Shown here: positions 6,864 through 64,000 of the stretch, in pieces | Layout: each line of letters starts with the position of its first letter | Numbering within the stretch: the first letter of the stretch is position 1 | Source: Halobellus salinus | GTDB lineage: Archaea; Halobacteriota; Halobacteria; Halobacteriales; Haloferacaceae | NCBI RefSeq assembly: GCF_014646875.1 | Contig: NZ_BMOC01000001.1 | Span: 1-64,000, forward strand | DNA length: 64,000 bases | Direction: 5' to 3' | The notes under the pieces: model-generated | The model's input: the letters and a program-made list of their open reading frames with translations, nothing else | What the model was told of the DNA's origin: nothing | Databases searched by the model: none | Made by a program: the position numbers and the translations under genes

Positions 6864-6987
6864 ACGGGGACGTACGCTCGGTGGAAGTAAATCGTTTGGC
6901 ATACCCGGTGGGTCGTGGTTCGTTACGCGATTGCTGGCCAGGAAACCGCCCTCGGGCGGGAGATCCGGCCGAGACCGCGCCGCCGGG

Positions 6988-8093: not shown

Positions 8094-8909
8094 TCACCCG
8101 AGGTACGCCACCGACACCGTGGTCGGCCCCGCGTCGGTGCGGAGGGTCACAGCAGCGACCAGTTTCGCACGCACCGTCTGCCGCCACTCCGCGACCGCTG
8201 TCCGGTGGCGCTCCCGGTGGCGTTCGCGGGAGTATGCGTTGTCCGACGCCCGGAGATCGTCCTCGGTGTCGTCGACAGTGGGGTAGGTCGGCGGGTCGGC
8301 GACGAACCGCTCGGGCGGGATGCACACCGGCGCCGGCTCGGCGGCGCGCGTCTCGTCGTCCGCTTCCGTCGCCTGCTCGGAGCCTCCGCCGGAGTCGTCG
8401 CCGACGACACCAACAGCGTGGAGCCGCGCCCGCATCCGACCCGAAAACGGCGGCGTGACCCGGAGCACGATCTCGCGATTACCCCGCGCGGTGGCTTCGA
8501 GCGCGTCGACCACGTCGCTCTCGGTCACCGCGAGCGACCCGATCCGCCGGGGGTCCGCCGACGACCGGGAGGCGTCGGCGTCCGGCGCGGTGTGCTCCGA
8601 CGGACGTTCACTCCGAGCGGAGGCGTCGCTCCCGGCGGTTCCAGCCTTCGGAGCAGTCCCGGTGTCGTCGGTGTCGTCGGTGTTGTCGGTAGCGTCGGTA
8701 GCGTCGATGTCGTCGGTAGCGTCGATGTCGTCGGTAGTCCCGGTGTCGTCGGTGTTGTCGGTAGCGTCGGTAGCGTCGATGTCGTCGGTAGTCCCGGTGT
8801 CGTCGGTGTTGTCGGTAGCGTCGGTAGCGTCGATGTCGTCGGTAGTCCCAGTGTCGTCGGTGTTGTCGGTAGCGTCGGTAGCGTCGATGTCGTCGCCCGG
8901 TCGGGTCAT
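8094..8909 (-). CDS. haloarchaeal protein of unknown function with acidic Asp/Thr repeats
   Basis: A 271-residue protein. Roughly residues 5-80 are tandem copies of an 18-residue unit, DIDATDATDNTDDTGTTD, which looks disordered. From about residue 118 a conserved-looking domain follows (RIGSLAVTESDVVDALEATA, then IVLRVTPPFSGRMRARLHAV), ending with a helix rich in Arg/His (YSRERHRERHRTAVAEWRQT) and a short beta segment. I know similar haloarchaeal proteins but no function. The start ATG at 8909 lies one base after the stop of the small zinc-protein gene, so the two form an operon. Repeat copy number probably varies between strains. Confidence 0.7.
   Translation of the reverse strand: MTRPGDDIDATDATDNTDDTGTTDDIDATDATDNTDDTGTTDDIDATDATDNTDDTGTTDDIDATDDIDATDATDNTDDTDDTGTAPKAGTAGSDASARSERPSEHTAPDADASRSSADPRRIGSLAVTESDVVDALEATARGNREIVLRVTPPFSGRMRARLHAVGVVGDDSGGGSEQATEADDETRAAEPAPVCIPPERFVADPPTYPTVDDTEDDLRASDNAYSRERHRERHRTAVAEWRQTVRAKLVAAVTLRTDAGPTTVSVAYLG
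8690..8890 (-). repeat. in-frame 54-bp tandem repeat
   Basis: Three near-identical 54-base units plus partial units encode the Asp/Thr-rich N-terminal region of the 8094-8909 gene. Units differ by single bases (tagtcccggt versus tagtcccagt), consistent with recent slippage or recombination. The length is a multiple of three, so the frame is preserved. Confidence 0.9.
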
Positions 8910-8910
8910 C

Positions 8911-9039
8911 TCACTCCGCCCGGCGCCGCGCGCCGCCGGTCCCGAGTTTGCCGTCGCACTCGGGACACCGCGCCCGGAACGACCCGGGCGAGACACGACA
9001 CCCACACTCCTGACAGACGAACGATTGCCGGCCGCTCAT
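8911..9039 (-). CDS. 42-residue zinc-ribbon protein (rubrerythrin-like zinc domain)
   Basis: A short gene that normal length cut-offs miss. The minus strand from the ATG at 9037-9039 reads MSGRQSFVCQECGCRVSPG, continues with RARCPECDGKLG, and stops at 8911-8913. Two CxxC knuckles (CQEC and CPEC) about 20 residues apart define a complete zinc ribbon like those haloarchaea annotate as rubrerythrin-like domain proteins. The stop is one base before the ATG of the repeat-rich gene, so translational coupling is likely. Function is unknown; protein or nucleic-acid binding is plausible. Confidence 0.75.
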   Translation of the reverse strand: MSGRQSFVCQECGCRVSPGSFRARCPECDGKLGTGGARRRAE

Positions 9040-9166: not shown

Positions 9167-10612
9167 ATGGCGGATCACCCAGGGTTTCATTCGCTCCACG
9201 ACGAGGCCGCGGCGTCGCTGTCGGTCGAGGGATCGCTCCCACCGTGGCTCACCGGCAGCCTCGTTCGGAACGGTCCCGGCGCGTTCTCGTTCCCGGGCGG
9301 GAGTGCCGTCGACCACTGGTTCGACGGCCTCGCGATGCTGTACCGGTTCACCTTCGACCCCGGGGAGGGGCAGGTCCACTACCGCAACCGGTTCCTCCGG
9401 ACCGACGCCTACGAGGCCGCCCGGGCGGGGGAGTTCGACGGCGGGTTCGCGACGGGCGAAACCACGCTCCGGTCGCGGCTGGCGACGTTCCTCAAGAGCC
9501 CCTACGATAACACCAACATCATCGTCGAGCGGGTCGGCGACGACTTTCTCGCGCTGACGGAGTCCCCGCGGTGGGTCGTGGTCGATCCGGACACCCTCGA
9601 CACGACCGGTCACGTCACCTACGAGGGATCCGCGCCGTCGGGGCAACTCTCCTGTGCACACTTCAAACGGGATCCTGCAACGGGGCGGCTCCTCACCGTC
9701 GACACCGAGTTCGGCCGCACCAGCACCTACCACGTCTACGCGATGGACGGCCCGCAGGACCGCCACCACATCGGCAGCGTCGACACCGACAAGCCCGCGT
9801 ACATGCACAGTTTCGCGATCACCCCACGGTACGTGCTCCTCACGGAGTTCCCGCTCCGACTCGACCCCCAGCGGTTCCTCAAACCCGGCCGGCAGGACCC
9901 GTTCATCGAGCAGTTCGAGTGGGAGCCCGGCAGGGGAACCCGGGTAATCGTGGTCGACCGGACCACCGGCGAGACGGTCGCGACCCCGACGGCGGAGCCG
10001 ACCTTCGGGTTCCACCACGTCAACGCGTTCGAGCGCGCCGGCGGCGACGAGATCGTTTTCGACCTCGAGACCGTCCCGGACGCGACCACCATCGACTCGC
10101 TGTACCTCGACGAACTCCGCGCGGGCGACCTCGACACACTCGCGGGACGGTTGGACCGGTTCACCGTCTCGCTCGACGGCGACAGCCGGTACGGCCCCGG
10201 CGACGCCACCGTCGAGCGCGAGACCCTCTACGACCAGGGGACGGCGCTGCCGACGGTCTCGCCCGCGCGGTGGTGTCACCGCCACCGCTACGTCTACGCG
10301 ATGAGCATGGACCAGCCCGCGACCGGGTGGGCCCACGGCGTGCTGAAGATCGACGCCGACACCGGCGACGCGGTCGAACACCGGGACGGAGGGGACTACC
10401 TCGGGGAACCGATCTTCGTGCCCGACCCCGGCGGCGACGCCGAGGACGACGGCGTGGTGCTCTCGGTCGCGCTCGACGACGCCGACGACACCTCGCGGCT
10501 GGTGGTCCTCGACGGCGACACGCTCACCGAGCGGGCGCGGGTCACGCTTCCGCACCAGGTCCCGTTCGACTTTCACGGCCGGTACCTCCCGGACGTGCGG
10601 GTCGCGGAGTAG
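9167..10612 (+). CDS. carotenoid cleavage oxygenase family protein
   Basis: A 481-residue enzyme of the carotenoid oxygenase/RPE65 superfamily, Fe(II) enzymes with a seven-bladed propeller that cleave carotenoids or related polyenes. The four iron-ligand histidines are in recognisable contexts: CAHF (H165), YMHSFAIT (H214), GFHHVNAFE (H283) and PFDFHGRYLP (H470). The N-terminal NGPGAF motif is also typical. Haloarchaea make bacterioruberin and retinal, so retinal or apocarotenoid formation is a reasonable role, but the substrate cannot be read from sequence. The ATG at 9167 (MADHPGFHSLHD) fits family starts. The gene stands alone, with the structured repeat just downstream. Confidence 0.9.
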   Translation: MADHPGFHSLHDEAAASLSVEGSLPPWLTGSLVRNGPGAFSFPGGSAVDHWFDGLAMLYRFTFDPGEGQVHYRNRFLRTDAYEAARAGEFDGGFATGETTLRSRLATFLKSPYDNTNIIVERVGDDFLALTESPRWVVVDPDTLDTTGHVTYEGSAPSGQLSCAHFKRDPATGRLLTVDTEFGRTSTYHVYAMDGPQDRHHIGSVDTDKPAYMHSFAITPRYVLLTEFPLRLDPQRFLKPGRQDPFIEQFEWEPGRGTRVIVVDRTTGETVATPTAEPTFGFHHVNAFERAGGDEIVFDLETVPDATTIDSLYLDELRAGDLDTLAGRLDRFTVSLDGDSRYGPGDATVERETLYDQGTALPTVSPARWCHRHRYVYAMSMDQPATGWAHGVLKIDADTGDAVEHRDGGDYLGEPIFVPDPGGDAEDDGVVLSVALDDADDTSRLVVLDGDTLTERARVTLPHQVPFDFHGRYLPDVRVAE

Positions 10613-10670
10613 TGGACAGCGGCGACGGGGCGATTCTGTGGGACCGCTACGAGCGGGTGGTGTTTTGTGG

Positions 10671-10820
10671 TACGATTGCTGGCGAAAGCCGCTCTCGGGT
10701 GGGAATGGAAGGGGCCGCGCTCTCGACGACGGTGGCCGACGAAAGCACTGCAGGAGCGAACGTAGTGAGCGACGAAGCGCGCAGCGAGGCCCCCGAGTCG
10801 AGAGCGCGGGGGCTTCCGAA
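10671..10820. repeat. dispersed structured repeat, copy A
   Basis: An intergenic element of about 150 bases. It begins tacgattgctggc, carries the conserved block cgctctcgggtggga then tggaaggggcc, and ends gggggcttccg. It can fold into a long hairpin: GGAAG (10707-10711) with CTTCC (10813-10817), and CGCGCTCTCGAC (10716-10727) with GTCGAGAGCGCG (10797-10808). The loop of about 70 bases contains gcgaacgtagtgagcgac. Copy B at the right end of the window has different but equally complementary arms. No protein is encoded. Confidence 0.85.
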
Positions 10821-10916
10821 GCCGTCTCTATCCTGTTGCCAGCAATGTTACTCTTGATCACACAGTACCTGCGAGCGTTCGAGCAATTTTATACGTCCCC
10901 GACGGGTCGAACGCGT

Positions 10917-11840
10917 ATGCAGAACGAACGCGTGCTGGTCACGGGCGGGGCGGGGTTCATCGGGTCGAACCTCGCGAACACGCTCGCCGTCGACAACGAC
11001 GTCGTGGCGCTGGATAACGGGTACCTCGGCACGCCCGAGAACCTCGACAGCGACGTCGAATACGTCGAGGCGGACGTACTCGACGAGGGACTGCCGACCG
11101 ATGTCGACGTCGTCTACCACCTCGCGGCGCTGTCCTCCCGCCAGATGCTCGAGGAGAACCCCCGGCAGGGCGCCCGCGTCAACATCGAGGGGTTCGTGAA
11201 CGTGGTCGAACAGGCGCGCGCCGACGGGTGTGACACCGTCGTGTACGCCTCAACCTCCTCAGCCTACGGGAGCCGAACCGAGCCGAGCCCCGAGGACATG
11301 GACCTCGAAGCCGCCACCGGGTACGACGCGTCCATGCTCGGCCGGGAACGGTACGCGGAGTACTACGGCGACTTCTACGACGACCTGACGCTGGCGGGGA
11401 TGCGCTTCTTCTCGGTCTACCAGGGGTACGGCGGCAACGAGGGCCACAAGGGGGAGTACGCGAACACGGTGTCGCAGTTCGCCGACGGCATCGCGAACGG
11501 CACTCCCCCGGTGCTGTGGGGCGACGGGTCGCAGACGCGGGACTTCACCCACGTCGACGACATCGTCCGGGGGCTGACGCGGGCGGCGGAGGCGGAACTC
11601 AACGGCGTTTACAACCTCGGAACGGGCGATCCGTACTCGTTCAACGAGATGGTGGAGATGATCAACGACGTCCTCGGGACCAACGTCGACCCGACGTACG
11701 AGCCGATCCCGCTCGCGAACTACGTCCACGACACCTGCGCGGACATCTCGAAGATCCACGAGGCGACGGGGTGGGAGCCGCAGATCGAGTTCCGCGAGGG
11801 CGTCCGTCGGGTGTGTGCGCCGTATCTCGACCGCGATTGA
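10917..11840 (+). CDS. NAD-dependent epimerase/dehydratase (extended SDR) with altered catalytic motif
   Basis: A 307-residue extended short-chain dehydrogenase of the sugar-nucleotide epimerase type. The NAD-binding motif is intact (TGGAGFIG, residues 9-16) and the Ser region is present (ASTSSAYGSR). The catalytic YxxxK motif reads Y136-D-A-S-M140, with Met (ATG) where Lys (AAG) is expected. The substrate-binding half is well conserved (WGDGSQTRDFTHVDDIVRGL). It probably acts on UDP-sugars for glycosylation or envelope glycans, if active. The ATG at 10917 directly precedes the Rossmann strand. It faces a second epimerase on the opposite strand. Confidence 0.85.
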   Translation: MQNERVLVTGGAGFIGSNLANTLAVDNDVVALDNGYLGTPENLDSDVEYVEADVLDEGLPTDVDVVYHLAALSSRQMLEENPRQGARVNIEGFVNVVEQARADGCDTVVYASTSSAYGSRTEPSPEDMDLEAATGYDASMLGRERYAEYYGDFYDDLTLAGMRFFSVYQGYGGNEGHKGEYANTVSQFADGIANGTPPVLWGDGSQTRDFTHVDDIVRGLTRAAEAELNGVYNLGTGDPYSFNEMVEMINDVLGTNVDPTYEPIPLANYVHDTCADISKIHEATGWEPQIEFREGVRRVCAPYLDRD

Positions 11841-24795: not shown

Positions 24796-25281
24796 CTACG
24801 CTTCCTCGGCCCCGTCGTCATCCTCCGAGTGGTCGGACTCTGCGGCCTGCGGGTGGGGCGTCGCGTCAGCACCGTCGAGGGATGCACCACGGTCGCTTGC
24901 CTGCTCCCCGTCGGGGCTTCCGGTGTCGCGGTCCGCGTCGGTGTCGCTTCCCTCCGTTTCGGTGTCGCGGTCCGCGTCGGTGTCGCTTCCCTCCGTTTCG
25001 GTGTCGCGGTCCGCGTCGGTGTCGCTTCCCTCCGTTTCGGTGTCGCGGTCCGCGTCGGTGTCGCTTCTCTCCGTTTCGGTGTCGGCAGTCCGTGCCGACT
25101 CGTCCACCGCGTTGGCCGTTCGAAACCGTCGGAGCGCGTCGTCCCACGTCTCCGCTGCGGCCGACGCCCGGGTGTGGTCGGACTCGACATCGGCGAAGCC
25201 ACACTGTTCGCAGTAGACCGACTGCAGGTCCCCGTCCAGTGAGATCCACGTGAGTCGGGTCCCGCACCGAGGGCAGTCCAT
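24796..25281 (-). CDS. zinc-ribbon protein with acidic repeat tail
   Basis: A 161-residue protein. A TFIIB-like zinc ribbon opens it: MDCPRCGTRLTWISLDGD and YCEQCGFADVE (CPRC...CEQC). A helical segment follows (AAETWDDALRRFRTANAVDE). The remainder is low-complexity acidic sequence with four tandem copies of a 13-residue unit TETEGSDTDADRD. The ATG at 25281 gives the zinc knuckle at residue 3, as in related haloarchaeal proteins. The tail is likely disordered. Function is unknown; small zinc-ribbon proteins of this type are abundant in haloarchaea. Confidence 0.75.
   Translation of the reverse strand: MDCPRCGTRLTWISLDGDLQSVYCEQCGFADVESDHTRASAAAETWDDALRRFRTANAVDESARTADTETERSDTDADRDTETEGSDTDADRDTETEGSDTDADRDTETEGSDTDADRDTGSPDGEQASDRGASLDGADATPHPQAAESDHSEDDDGAEEA
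24922..25080 (-). repeat. in-frame 39-bp tandem repeat
   Basis: About four near-identical 39-base units (cggtgtcgcggtccgcgtcg and onward on the plus strand) encode the acidic tail of the zinc-ribbon protein. Units are almost identical; one carries a single c-to-t change (cttctctcc for cttccctcc), suggesting recent expansion. Confidence 0.9.
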
Positions 25282-34227: not shown

Positions 34228-34299
34228 AGCCTAGGCCGGGATTTGAACCCGGGGTCTCGTCCTTACCAAGGACGCGCTTTACCGCTAAGCTACCCAGGC
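34228..34299 (-). tRNA. tRNA-Thr (anticodon GGT)
   Basis: The minus strand folds as a full tRNA without intron. The acceptor stem is GCCTGGG/CCTAGGC with discriminator T, usual for archaeal tRNA-Thr. The anticodon arm is CGTCC-TTGGTAA-GGACG with anticodon GGT, and the T-arm is CCGGG-TTCAAAT-CCCGG. It is 72 bases and the CCA is not encoded. Confidence 0.95.
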
Positions 34300-38474: not shown

Positions 38475-38550
38475 ACCGGAGCCAGGACCGCGGACCGTCT
38501 AATATGTATCCCTGGTCACGACGGTCGTGTTTAGGTAGGCGACGACCGAC

Positions 38551-38590
38551 CGGAGAACCGCTCTCGGGTGGGACTGGAAGCCCCCGATGT
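38551..38590. repeat. truncated copy of the dispersed structured repeat
   Basis: cggagaaccgctctcgggtg followed by ggactggaag matches the conserved 5' block of the repeats at 10671 and 63822. The match ends after tggaag; no 3' arm is present, so this is a 5' fragment. Confidence 0.75.
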
Positions 38591-38629
38591 CTCGTTCTCA
38601 GCAACCTCACTCCCGGGTGAACAGTACCG

Positions 38630-40495
38630 TCACGACTCCCGGTCAGGGGGGTCGACGTCGTGGTGGGCCTGAATGGTGGGGAGGCGATCCAGCGCCTGTC
38701 GGACGATCGAGGCGTGGCCCCGGCCGCGCTCCTCGCGGTACAGCGCGAGCGACAACCCGATGAGCGCGAGCACGGCCAACACGGCGAACGGCGCGCCCGT
38801 AAGAACCGCCAGCGCCTGGAGGGTCTCGCCGCCGCCGGCCAGAAGCACGGAGAGCGCGACGGCCGCCTGGAAACCGCCCCACAGCACGATACTCCCCCGG
38901 GAGGGCGCAACCTCCCGCCGCGACGCCAGGATGGCGGTGACGAGCGTCGAGGTGTCCGCGGAGGTGACCATGAACACGACGATGAGCGACAGAAAGAGAA
39001 ACGCCAGGAGTTCGCCCAGCGGGAGCGACGACAGGAGCGGGAACCCCGCGACCGCCTCGGAGCCGCCGCGTTCGGTGATGGCTCCCAGCGCGTCGGCCCC
39101 GCCGCCGCGCTGGAGCGACAGCGCGGTGCCGCCGAAGATCAGAAACCACGCGCCCGTTGCCGCGGAGGTAGCGACCACGCTGGTGAACACCACGGTCCGG
39201 ATCCGCCGGCCGCGCGACAGCGCCGCGATGAATGTCCCCGCGAACGGTGCCCACGAGAACCACCACGCCCAGTTCCAGACGGTCCACTCCGTCACCCACG
39301 ACCCCGAGGAGAACAGGCTCATCGGCAGGACGTGTACCGCGTACGACCCGAGCGCGTCGGTGCCGCGGTCGACAACGAACCCCCGCGGGCCGACCGTCAA
39401 AAGCAGGAGCGCAAACAGCCCGAACAGGACCACGGTGAGCCCGGATATCCGCCGGATGCCCCGGTGGAGCCCCGAGACCGCAGAGAGCACGAACACCGTC
39501 GCCAGCCCGCCGACGAGGAGAACCGGCCCGATGTCGCTGGGAGGCACGTCCCACTGGAACGCTACCCCCGCGAGAAACTGTTGGGAGATGAGCCCGAGCG
39601 AGGTGGCGATTCCGCCGATGGTGGCGAACACCGCCAGGGTGTCGACCAGCCGGCTCCACGGCGAGGCCAACCCGTCGACACCCAGAAACGGCGTCAGGAT
39701 CGACGACACTCTGAGCGGGGCGCCGCGCTGGAACACGAAGTACGCGATCGGAATCCCGATTGCGGCGTAGGCGGCCCACGCCGACACCCCCCAGTGGAAC
39801 AGCGAGTACACTAAGGCGGCGTTGACCGCGGCCGACGACCCGGCCGGAGCGTCGAAATACGGCGGCGGCTGCTGGTAGTGAAACAGCGCCTCGGCGGGGC
39901 CCCAGAAGACGATACCCGCGGCGATCCCCGCAGTGAAAACGAGCGAGAAGTACGTCGGGTAGGTGTACGCCGGCGTGGCGTCCTCGCCGCCGAGTTTGAT
40001 ATCGCCCCACGGCCCGAACAGTAGCGCTCCGCAGTAGAGCACCGAAAGAAGGGAAACGCCGAGCAGCATCGGTCCCATTCCGCGGAGGATGCCGTCGGTG
40101 AGCCCGTTGATCGCGGCCGTCGTGGTCGCCGGGAACGCCAACTGGAGCGCGAAATACCCCGCAAAGACCGCGATCGGGAGTCCGAGGATGGCCGGATCGT
40201 GGGCGGCAACGACGTCTCCGAGCAACGACCGGACCGATCCCCGGCGGACCGCGAGCAGCGCCGAACCGGTCGACTCCGTGGTTCCATCGCTGTCGTGGGG
40301 AAGCACCGCGATGTACCCCAAGCCGGAACCGAAAAACAGCAGCGCGAGCACCAGCCACGTCTGGCCGCCGATGACACCGCCGACAAGCGCCGGGAAGAAA
40401 AACCCCACCAGGACGACCGCGCCGGATCCGACGAAGGTCGACAGGAACGCGCCGGCCACGGTCTTTCGCCCGTCGCTTATGTCAACGGTGCTCAT
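38630..40495 (-). CDS. BCCT-family transporter with N-terminal extension
   Basis: A 621-residue carrier of the betaine/carnitine/choline family. The family core runs from about residue 105 to 600: GDIKLGGEDATPAYTY, AEALFHYQQPPP, the FHWGVSAWAAYAAIG region, and the signature WNWAWWFSWAPFAGTFIAAL. The N-terminus holds two extra transmembrane helices (about 13-38 and 44-62) not seen in standard members. The substrate/Na+ motif read as AGMGIG in the other carrier here is AGIAAG, so specificity may differ. I chose the ATG at 40495 over a GTG 9 bases upstream. Confidence 0.88.
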   Translation of the reverse strand: MSTVDISDGRKTVAGAFLSTFVGSGAVVLVGFFFPALVGGVIGGQTWLVLALLFFGSGLGYIAVLPHDSDGTTESTGSALLAVRRGSVRSLLGDVVAAHDPAILGLPIAVFAGYFALQLAFPATTTAAINGLTDGILRGMGPMLLGVSLLSVLYCGALLFGPWGDIKLGGEDATPAYTYPTYFSLVFTAGIAAGIVFWGPAEALFHYQQPPPYFDAPAGSSAAVNAALVYSLFHWGVSAWAAYAAIGIPIAYFVFQRGAPLRVSSILTPFLGVDGLASPWSRLVDTLAVFATIGGIATSLGLISQQFLAGVAFQWDVPPSDIGPVLLVGGLATVFVLSAVSGLHRGIRRISGLTVVLFGLFALLLLTVGPRGFVVDRGTDALGSYAVHVLPMSLFSSGSWVTEWTVWNWAWWFSWAPFAGTFIAALSRGRRIRTVVFTSVVATSAATGAWFLIFGGTALSLQRGGGADALGAITERGGSEAVAGFPLLSSLPLGELLAFLFLSLIVVFMVTSADTSTLVTAILASRREVAPSRGSIVLWGGFQAAVALSVLLAGGGETLQALAVLTGAPFAVLAVLALIGLSLALYREERGRGHASIVRQALDRLPTIQAHHDVDPPDRES

Positions 40496-40537
40496 ACGGG
40501 ACACGTTGTGGGGGAGGTGTATTATGTTGTTGACGCG

Positions 40538-41977
40538 TCAGGGCTCGGTATCGCCGGCAGCGGAAGTCTCGCTGTCGGGATCGGCAGCGGAAGTCTCGCC
40601 GTCGGGATCGGCAGCGGAAGTCTCGCTGTCGGGATCGGCAGCGGAAGTCTCGCCGTCGGTGCCGGCAGCGGAAGTCTCGCCGTCGGTGCCGGCAGCGGAA
40701 GTCTCGCTGTCGGGATCGGCGGTCGCGACCCCGGCGAAGTCGCCGTCTGTCCGCCCGAGCAACCCCTCCAGCGGAGACCCGGCGTCGCCGTCACGGTCGG
40801 GATCCAACACCGTCGCCCCGAGCAGCCGACCGCCGATCGACCGGAGGTCGATCACCTCGTCGGCGCCGACAGTGCCCAGTTTGTCGACGTGGGTGTCGCC
40901 GTTCGCGACCGCGACGATCCTGACGTCGGAGTTGACATTCCGTGTGGCCAGCACTGCGAGCACGTTGGCCGCGTCGTCGTCGCTCGCGACCGCGACGCCG
41001 CGTGCGGCGTCAACCCGCGCGTCAACCAGCGCGGACTCGTCGGTGGGGTCGTCGGTCAGCACCTCGATCCCGGCGTCCGACAGCCGCGCAGCGGCGTCGG
41101 TGTCTGTAGTCACCACCACCAGGTCGGTGCCGTCCGCGACCTGGTCGAGGAACGATTCGGTCACGTCGCCGTAGCCGAGCACCACCACGTGGTCCTCGAG
41201 GAGTGCGAGTTCTGATGCGGTCATGGTTCCAAACGCGGATGCCATCCGGGACTCGATCGCGGGACCGACGAGAGCGCCGACCGCCACGGTGAACGCGCCG
41301 GTCCCGAGCAGGATCACCGATAGCGAAAACAGCTCCGCCTCGACCGTTCGCGGGGTGATATCGCCGTACCCCACCGTCGCGATGGTGACGATCACGTAGT
41401 AGAAGGCGTCGCCCCAGTTGTGGAGTTCGATGAACTGCTCGCGGAGGCCGTACGACCCGATGGTGCCGTAGACCACGACCCCGAGAATCGAGGTCAGCGA
41501 GGCGACCTGGAGCGATGACAGCGCAAGCGCGGTGTCGAACTCCCCGCGGTTGGCGATCAGGAAGGGGACGGTCACCACGATGAGGAAAAACAGCGGGATT
41601 TCGGTCGGCCGCCCCGTGAGAAACGGGAAGACCGCGAGCAGCGGGACCAACACCAAGGCGGCGAGCCACGCGATCCGCCGCCGCCGACTGAGCCCGAACG
41701 TCACGAGGGCCAGGGGGAACGCGAACAACACGCCGGCGAACCGGACAAAGATCCGTGTGCCGGGGACGATACCCCCGAGCGGCCCGTCGACGACGAGCTG
41801 CGGCTGGCTCAGGTTCGAGAGCCCGGTGACAAAGGCGAGCACCGTGACCGCAGCCACGAGCGTCACGGTTGGCTTCGCGCCCGAGAACTCCCGCCACTCG
41901 ACGAACGGGATCCGCTCAACCGGGTAGAACATCCGCTCGAATGGGCGTTCGTCCGGCTGGCCCTGTGAGTCAACCAC
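40538..41977 (-). CDS. ion channel with TrkA (RCK) domain, putative K+ channel
   Basis: A 479-residue membrane protein. Several helices (about 36-55, 76-95, 103-120, 128-142, 153-172) precede a pore loop with the K+ selectivity filter TVGYGD (201-206) and a pore helix. A cytosolic RCK_N domain follows (HVVVLGYGDVTESFLDQVAD) with VASDDDAANVLAVLATRN, ending in a repeat-rich acidic tail. The filter predicts K+ selectivity, fitting salt-in osmoadaptation. The first codon is a GTG at 41977; an ATG at 41932 (MFYPVERIPFVEW) is a good alternative. Confidence 0.86.
   Translation of the reverse strand: MVDSQGQPDERPFERMFYPVERIPFVEWREFSGAKPTVTLVAAVTVLAFVTGLSNLSQPQLVVDGPLGGIVPGTRIFVRFAGVLFAFPLALVTFGLSRRRRIAWLAALVLVPLLAVFPFLTGRPTEIPLFFLIVVTVPFLIANRGEFDTALALSSLQVASLTSILGVVVYGTIGSYGLREQFIELHNWGDAFYYVIVTIATVGYGDITPRTVEAELFSLSVILLGTGAFTVAVGALVGPAIESRMASAFGTMTASELALLEDHVVVLGYGDVTESFLDQVADGTDLVVVTTDTDAAARLSDAGIEVLTDDPTDESALVDARVDAARGVAVASDDDAANVLAVLATRNVNSDVRIVAVANGDTHVDKLGTVGADEVIDLRSIGGRLLGATVLDPDRDGDAGSPLEGLLGRTDGDFAGVATADPDSETSAAGTDGETSAAGTDGETSAADPDSETSAADPDGETSAADPDSETSAAGDTEP
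40555..40735 (-). repeat. in-frame 27-bp tandem repeat in the channel tail
   Basis: Six copies of a 9-residue unit, alternately DPDSETSAA, DPDGETSAA or GTDGETSAA, form the C-terminal tail of the channel. Alternation of whole units suggests higher-order duplication. Confidence 0.9.
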
Positions 41978-63821: not shown

Positions 63822-63975
63822 GCGCGGTTGCTGCCGAGGAGCCGCTATCGGGTGGGACTGGAAGGGGCCGGGCGGTCGCGGGCGCTGACGACGCAAGCAC
63901 CACAGACCGGAGGCCGAGGAGCGCAGCGAGTCAGCGCCCGCGAGCGCGAGGGGGCTTCCGGGTTGCCCCCGCACT
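63822..63975. repeat. dispersed structured repeat, copy B
   Basis: Same organisation as copy A at 10671: gttgctgcc, then cgctatcgggtgggactgga, aggggccg and a 3' end gggggcttccg. The outer stem is GGAAG (63860-63864) with CTTCC (63955-63959). The inner arms are CGCGGGCGCTGAC (63877-63889) and GTCAGCGCCCGCG (63930-63942): different bases from copy A but again perfectly complementary. The loop shares gacgcaagcacc and ggagcgcagcgag with copy A. Confidence 0.85.
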
Positions 63976-64000
63976 GTTTTCGGCGGTTTTAGACGCTGTT

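Follow-up and report, generated by a model that had tools for sequence, protein, structure and literature searches.

Palindromes of the REP/BIME and ERIC types supply bacterial genomes with many intergenic hairpins each, among them paired copies and nested insertions. In haloarchaea, MITEs such as those of Haloquadratum walsbyi are short, non-coding sequences that share inverted ends with insertion sequences, are flanked by target duplications and are mobilised in trans, while the PATEs and SMRs of Haloquadratum are short transposase-free repeats, the PATEs having near-terminal palindromes but neither inverted ends nor duplications (PMC3119063). In Haloferax volcanii, predicted G-quadruplexes are reported to peak sharply some 100 bp ahead of start sites (2026 study, PMC12873603). 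Since most haloarchaeal transcripts are leaderless (72%, PMC5867862), the start codon can be taken as an approximation of the start site.

A hairpin element of Halobellus salinus, found in the 64,000-nucleotide stretch of DNA analysed here (the window), can be set beside each of these systems. It has the properties listed above for haloarchaeal MITEs (PMC3119063), but differs in having a class-wide covarying fold, probably of RNA, that also occurs without ends, in occupying orthologous sites and in its fixed promoter spacing. With IS6-family insertion sequences (NF033587) it shares the terminal bases GGTCGTGTTTAGTTA and 8-bp duplications, whereas it carries no transposase and its interior is unrelated. 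Its palindrome is internal, unlike those of PATEs, and identity with PATEs was rejected, as copies in the genus have both terminal inverted repeats and a target duplication. REP/BIME and ERIC elements resemble it in their many intergenic hairpins, paired copies and nested insertions, yet the present element is archaeal, has IS6 ends rather than a RAYT partner, keeps a strict distance to the start codon and contains non-canonical motifs of the RNA type. Like the promoter G-quadruplexes of H. volcanii, its G-rich tracts precede start sites by about 100 bp; the published feature, however, is a positional peak of predicted G-quadruplexes and not a repeat family, an RNA fold or a mobile element (PMC12873603).

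Sequence matching within the window established that the repeats noted at four sites in a preliminary description (copies A to D, all on the + strand) are genuine relatives, although their extents had to be revised. Copy A, previously bounded too narrowly, is a 214-bp element (10656..10869) with inverted ends GGTGGTGTTTTG / CACACAGTACC, flanked by TACGAGCG on the left (10648..10655) and TGCGAGCG on the right (10870..10877), a target-site duplication matching at 7/8 positions. Its conserved 5' block GGGTGGGAATGGAAGGGG (10697..10714) comprises two unpaired GGG tracts, the stem strand GGAAG and a third GGG, and is followed by the variable 5' arm CCGCGCTCTCGAC (10715..10727), the variable 3' arm GTCGAGAGCGCGG (10797..10809), a fourth GGG opposite the third together with the stem strand CTTCC (10810..10817), and a 3' segment of 52 nt (10818..10869) that terminates in the 3' inverted end. 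The start codon of the downstream gene (10917..11840, + strand), judged by eye from its sequence to be NAD-dependent epimerase-like, lies 99 nt past CTTCC. Copy B, likewise longer than first described, has an eroded 5' end at about 63808 and runs past the window end at 64000; its arms are CGCGGGCGCTGAC (63877..63889) and GTCAGCGCCCGCG (63930..63942). As originally claimed, the arms differ between A and B while both 13-nt pairs are fully complementary, and the outer pair GGAAG/CTTCC is common to both. A third copy, described as 5'-truncated at 38551-38590, is instead a complete 106-bp element (copy C, 38523..38628) with both ends, a perfect 8-bp duplication of GTCACGAC (38515..38522 and 38629..38636) and a deleted hairpin. 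The supposed weaker relative at 6926-6961 is indeed related, and is now delimited as a 5' remnant reaching from the inverted end to GGGCGGGA (copy D, 6911..6961; 88% over 51 nt, E 8e-12).

Searched with 180 bases of copy A, the 3.07-Mb genome gave dozens of matches (best non-self E=2e-31), and a covariance model search found 43 places at E<=0.1, which excludes chance resemblance; A and B are thus two among about 40 copies in H. salinus. Model R1, built from 62 diverse copies, matched copy A (G000:C1:10685-10827, E 6e-27) and copy B (63838-63969, E 5e-16). In a wider search it found the element in 243/292 sampled haloarchaeal genomes and 64/77 genera, many genomes having at least 11 matches, so that the earlier belief in similar sequences elsewhere in haloarchaea is borne out at the scale of a class-wide family. 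Among the matches listed (up to 120 stretches), exact copies of GGGTGGGACTGRAAGGGGC are spread across the class, with Haloarcula, Natrinema, Halobaculum, Haladaptatus, Natronococcus, Halorubrum and Haloparvum among the genera. R1 gave no match outside the class, and in the phylum sample matches came only from the same order. Within the genus, presence is patchy (0 to 41 BLAST matches per genome).

The element was previously uncatalogued. Rfam 15 gave no gathering-score match at these loci in the window and none at E<=10 for 10600-10900, phage records did not match it, and no description was found in open-licence PMC papers on haloarchaeal repeats, MITEs, sRNA, G-quadruplexes and structured-RNA screens. 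Most of the haloarchaeal genomes sampled contain this covarying element, in all likelihood of RNA, frequently tens of times over and beside housekeeping genes, yet Rfam has no entry for it.

The + strand forms a long hairpin. In 221 copies, the outer stem pairs GRAAG with CTTYC (variable pair A-T in 113, G-C in 98); inward of this 5-bp stem, GGG lies opposite GGG, after which a C-G pair opens an arm of 12-13 bp in which nearly all pairs are present in multiple Watson-Crick forms. The inner part contains tandem G/A mismatches (61/62 sequences), a free single-base bulge and an AA/RCA loop. RNAalifold predicted 28 pairs, of which 21 show double-sided compensation; 93.1% of paired cells in the alignment can pair, vs 71.7% after shuffling, and the covariation score of 0.505 exceeds those of shuffled (0.142) and slid (<=0.093) controls. 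Selection on structure, originally proposed from two copies, is thereby confirmed across the family. Pairing 61-107 was preferred over 61-104 because it is free of C.A. The four GGG tracts are all intact in 170/196 copies, which gives the + strand the sequence potential for a G-quadruplex of four tracts of at least three G. In two rare variants, at window positions 38576-38590 and in one minus-strand copy (L161), the 5' GGG has become CCC, a change by which the GGG/GGG mismatch could close into a full stem.

Two structural or coding identities were discarded. A classical kink-turn has the tandem G/A mismatches, but the 3-nt bulge is misplaced. The notion that the copies are remnants of a protein-coding element, which the preliminary description had named as grounds for abandoning its proposal, is contradicted by an inner length that is not a multiple of 3, the lack of GC3 bias and stop codons in every frame.

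Several copies (L007, L009, L010, L011, L014, L017, L024, L259 and others) share nested hairpin modules within the arms, namely ACCAGAACGC..GCGTTCTGGT, GGTCTCGCTGGAAACCGGCGG and TCTCGTGATCACGA, which appear in varying combinations inside the main hairpin, a pattern that would fit insertion of small palindromes into the loop. In four others (L060, L200, L244, L256), the inner part is flipped with respect to the outer arms, the outcome that recombination between the arms would produce. The motif GTGGGACTGAAAG may resemble the 3' end of haloarchaeal CRISPR repeats.

Which strand is folded can be read from the mismatches. Among non-Watson-Crick pairs on the + strand in 104 distinct arm pairs, 58 are G.U vs 12 A.C (p=2e-8), and one inner pair occurs as C-G 58 times, U.G 32 times, U-A 14 times and C.A never. 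A palindrome constrained as a duplex should show symmetric wobbles; the one-sided ratio therefore points to constraint on the folded + strand, as do, taken with it, the near-invariant tandem G/A mismatches and the four GGG tracts. Judged by these sequence features, the folded + strand is most likely RNA and less likely single-stranded DNA.

A second signal lies 3' of the hairpin. Over about 36 nt past it, in 96 divergent copies, the pyrimidine fraction is 0.75 at every third base, compared with 0.44 and 0.51 at the two other phases; class-wide, the period-3 pyrimidines cover the first ~40 nt of the 3' segment. The segment has no GC3 bias, its periodicity stops near the old 3' end, and it is not ordinary coding sequence. 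The period spans 9-44 nt after CTTYC (e.g. window 10822-10857), is phase-locked in many genera, and G is strongly depleted at the periodic base.

Within the genus, the hairpin is carried by MITEs with IS6-family ends. These carriers, 106-383 bp long, surround the core, terminate in GGTCGTGTTTAGTTA / TAACTAAACAGTACC and are flanked by 8-bp target duplications (G000, G004, G005, G009); the duplication is perfect in 14 listed copies as well as in copy C. A 697-bp element of the same genomes, one copy of which is flanked by an 8-bp duplication, also ends in GGTCGTGTTTAGTTA and encodes an IS6 transposase (NF033587, E 1.7e-51). At the locus of copy C, the relative G004 has an empty orthologous site, a continuous match with a single TCACGAC. 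Together, the inverted ends, duplications, transposase with the same ends and unoccupied site uphold the non-autonomous mobile element offered as one of the original options. Three hairpin-deleted versions (copy C, L037 and L046) retain perfect target duplications, and the hairpin is therefore dispensable for movement. IS6-type ends do not extend to all family members: most copies of other genera have no recognisable ends, but any 3' end that can still be made out is usually 57-58 nt past CTTYC, as in the genus Halobellus.

Copies persist at orthologous sites. A nucS-like/endA-like locus has the element both in the genus of the window (L217) and in another family, in Natrinema and its relatives (L094, L108, L119, L186); core identity between the families is 65-74%, whereas the flanking 60 nt, at about 44-52%, come close to what unrelated sequences show. 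Orthologous copies within the genus have arms that differ but match internally, e.g. copy B and its G004 counterpart (L237). Either the arms were compensated in situ or another copy took over the site; in both cases the structure was kept.

Placement relative to genes, which were called by codon-position composition, is anchored on the 3' side. A codirectional downstream start codon falls 83-109 nt past the core 3' end in 66/108 cases, and in the genus-only subset 45/55 start codons fall at 87-106 nt; toward divergent genes on the 5' side, the best 27-nt window holds only 15/82. A TATA-like box 32-36 nt ahead of codirectional start codons supports these calls. Convergent genes mostly end 29-90 nt from the core, and 59/167 copies have no codirectional downstream gene. 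The upstream gene points in the same direction at 85/167 copies, about as expected, so that copies show no clear preference for sites behind codirectional genes. Of 15 pairs of copies, 14 are head to head, one is tail to tail and none is in tandem; the head-to-head cores (L084, L091, L095, L101, L113, L116, L136, L147, L151, L158, L182, L189) are usually 15-27 nt apart. The promoter distance showed only weak helical phasing (p about 0.02 at 1/3 periods tried). Annotated plasmid copies provide few independent start-codon distances, with two clear contexts at ~75 and ~127 nt. Seven plasmid copies (L307, L310, L311, L312, L313, L314, L315) have a divergent gene starting several hundred nt away that encodes an RPA-like DNA-binding protein with an OB fold, an association that recurs across several families. 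By eye, the downstream genes are diverse in function, and a metabolite riboswitch was ruled out on that ground.

The reading we prefer, with somewhat less than an even chance of being right, is that the element is a cis-acting terminator or insulator shielding the next promoter or gene end from incoming transcription. With no evident promoter of its own, it would become active in cis once RNA polymerase that has come in from upstream transcribes it. The fold of this RNA, which may include a G-quadruplex of the four GGG tracts, and the pyrimidine-periodic 3' segment would then make transcription stop or stall, and a downstream promoter or convergent gene 3' end would thus be insulated from antisense transcription and read-through. 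Between divergent genes, back-to-back copies would each guard their own gene. Such an insulator fits the + strand fold, the absence of a promoter, the 3' anchoring, the head-to-head pairs and the diversity of genes. The terminator-like device suggested earlier is in this form our favoured function, but without the classical marks of one: although a GC hairpin is present, the consensus has no U-run, and no clear excess of copies follows codirectional genes. Nor does a terminator have any obvious need of a tight start-codon distance. If the element does act in cis, haloarchaea have a general means, derived from a mobile element, of sealing off promoters where genomes are compact, a point relevant to how read-through is limited in archaea.

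A first rival is a purely selfish MITE, whose arms would covary because template switching or gene conversion mends quasi-palindromes, and whose placement would reflect an IS6 preference for sites just behind promoter complexes. Young insertions tend to have the orientation and spacing already, and in several cases lie 36-56 nt from a start codon, so that targeting of insertion might account for the placement with no function involved; such insertion, followed by selection, may be the source of the spacing. The terminal inverted repeats, target duplications and empty site, the perfect duplications around hairpin-deleted copies and the four inverted inner parts all agree with a selfish element. 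Template switching is strand-symmetric, however, and predicts neither the 58:12 excess of G.U over A.C nor an unpaired GGG/GGG and invariant G/A mismatches; moreover, end-less copies persist at orthologous sites across families, and symmetric ends leave the oriented placement unexplained. This rival is already weakened, and we consider it unlikely.

A free-standing family of small RNAs, trans-acting or protein-binding and made from many copies, was another of the original options. Strong covariation, + strand wobble, class-wide range and invariant loop motifs, as typical of protein-binding RNAs, would suit it, but no promoter-like signal was found at any fixed position upstream of the core by a scan that did recover the promoters of downstream genes, and tight spacing to a downstream gene would be meaningless for an RNA acting in trans. 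This reading is rather improbable.

Least probable, by a little, is a DNA-level upstream regulatory site, with a DNA G-quadruplex on the G-rich strand or a protein at GGGTGGGACTGRAAG acting on a promoter about 100 bp off: the intact tracts in 170/196 copies, the fixed distance to the promoter and the sharp peak of H. volcanii predictions near -100 bp of start sites (PMC12873603) speak for it, whereas about a third of copies (59/167) have no codirectional downstream gene to act on, and covarying arms, one-sided wobble and loop motifs demand a folded single strand.

Returning to the cis-acting insulator, the last G tract of the element falls about where the H. volcanii peak lies, and that peak may consist of copies of the hairpin element, which offers a concrete, directly testable explanation of the published result. 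The fullest version, a class-wide RNA insulator borne by a mobile element, possibly a hairpin held by a G-quadruplex and bound by a dedicated protein, recruited across haloarchaea as a general boundary that would end incoming transcription right behind promoters, and underlying the Haloferax peak at -100, we regard as doubtful.

The window also contains tandem repeats of 9, 39 and 27 bp at 8615-8947, 24879-25112 and 40528-40743, respectively, which have the appearance of coding repeats, and a tRNA gene on the minus strand at 34228-34299 (Rfam RF00005).
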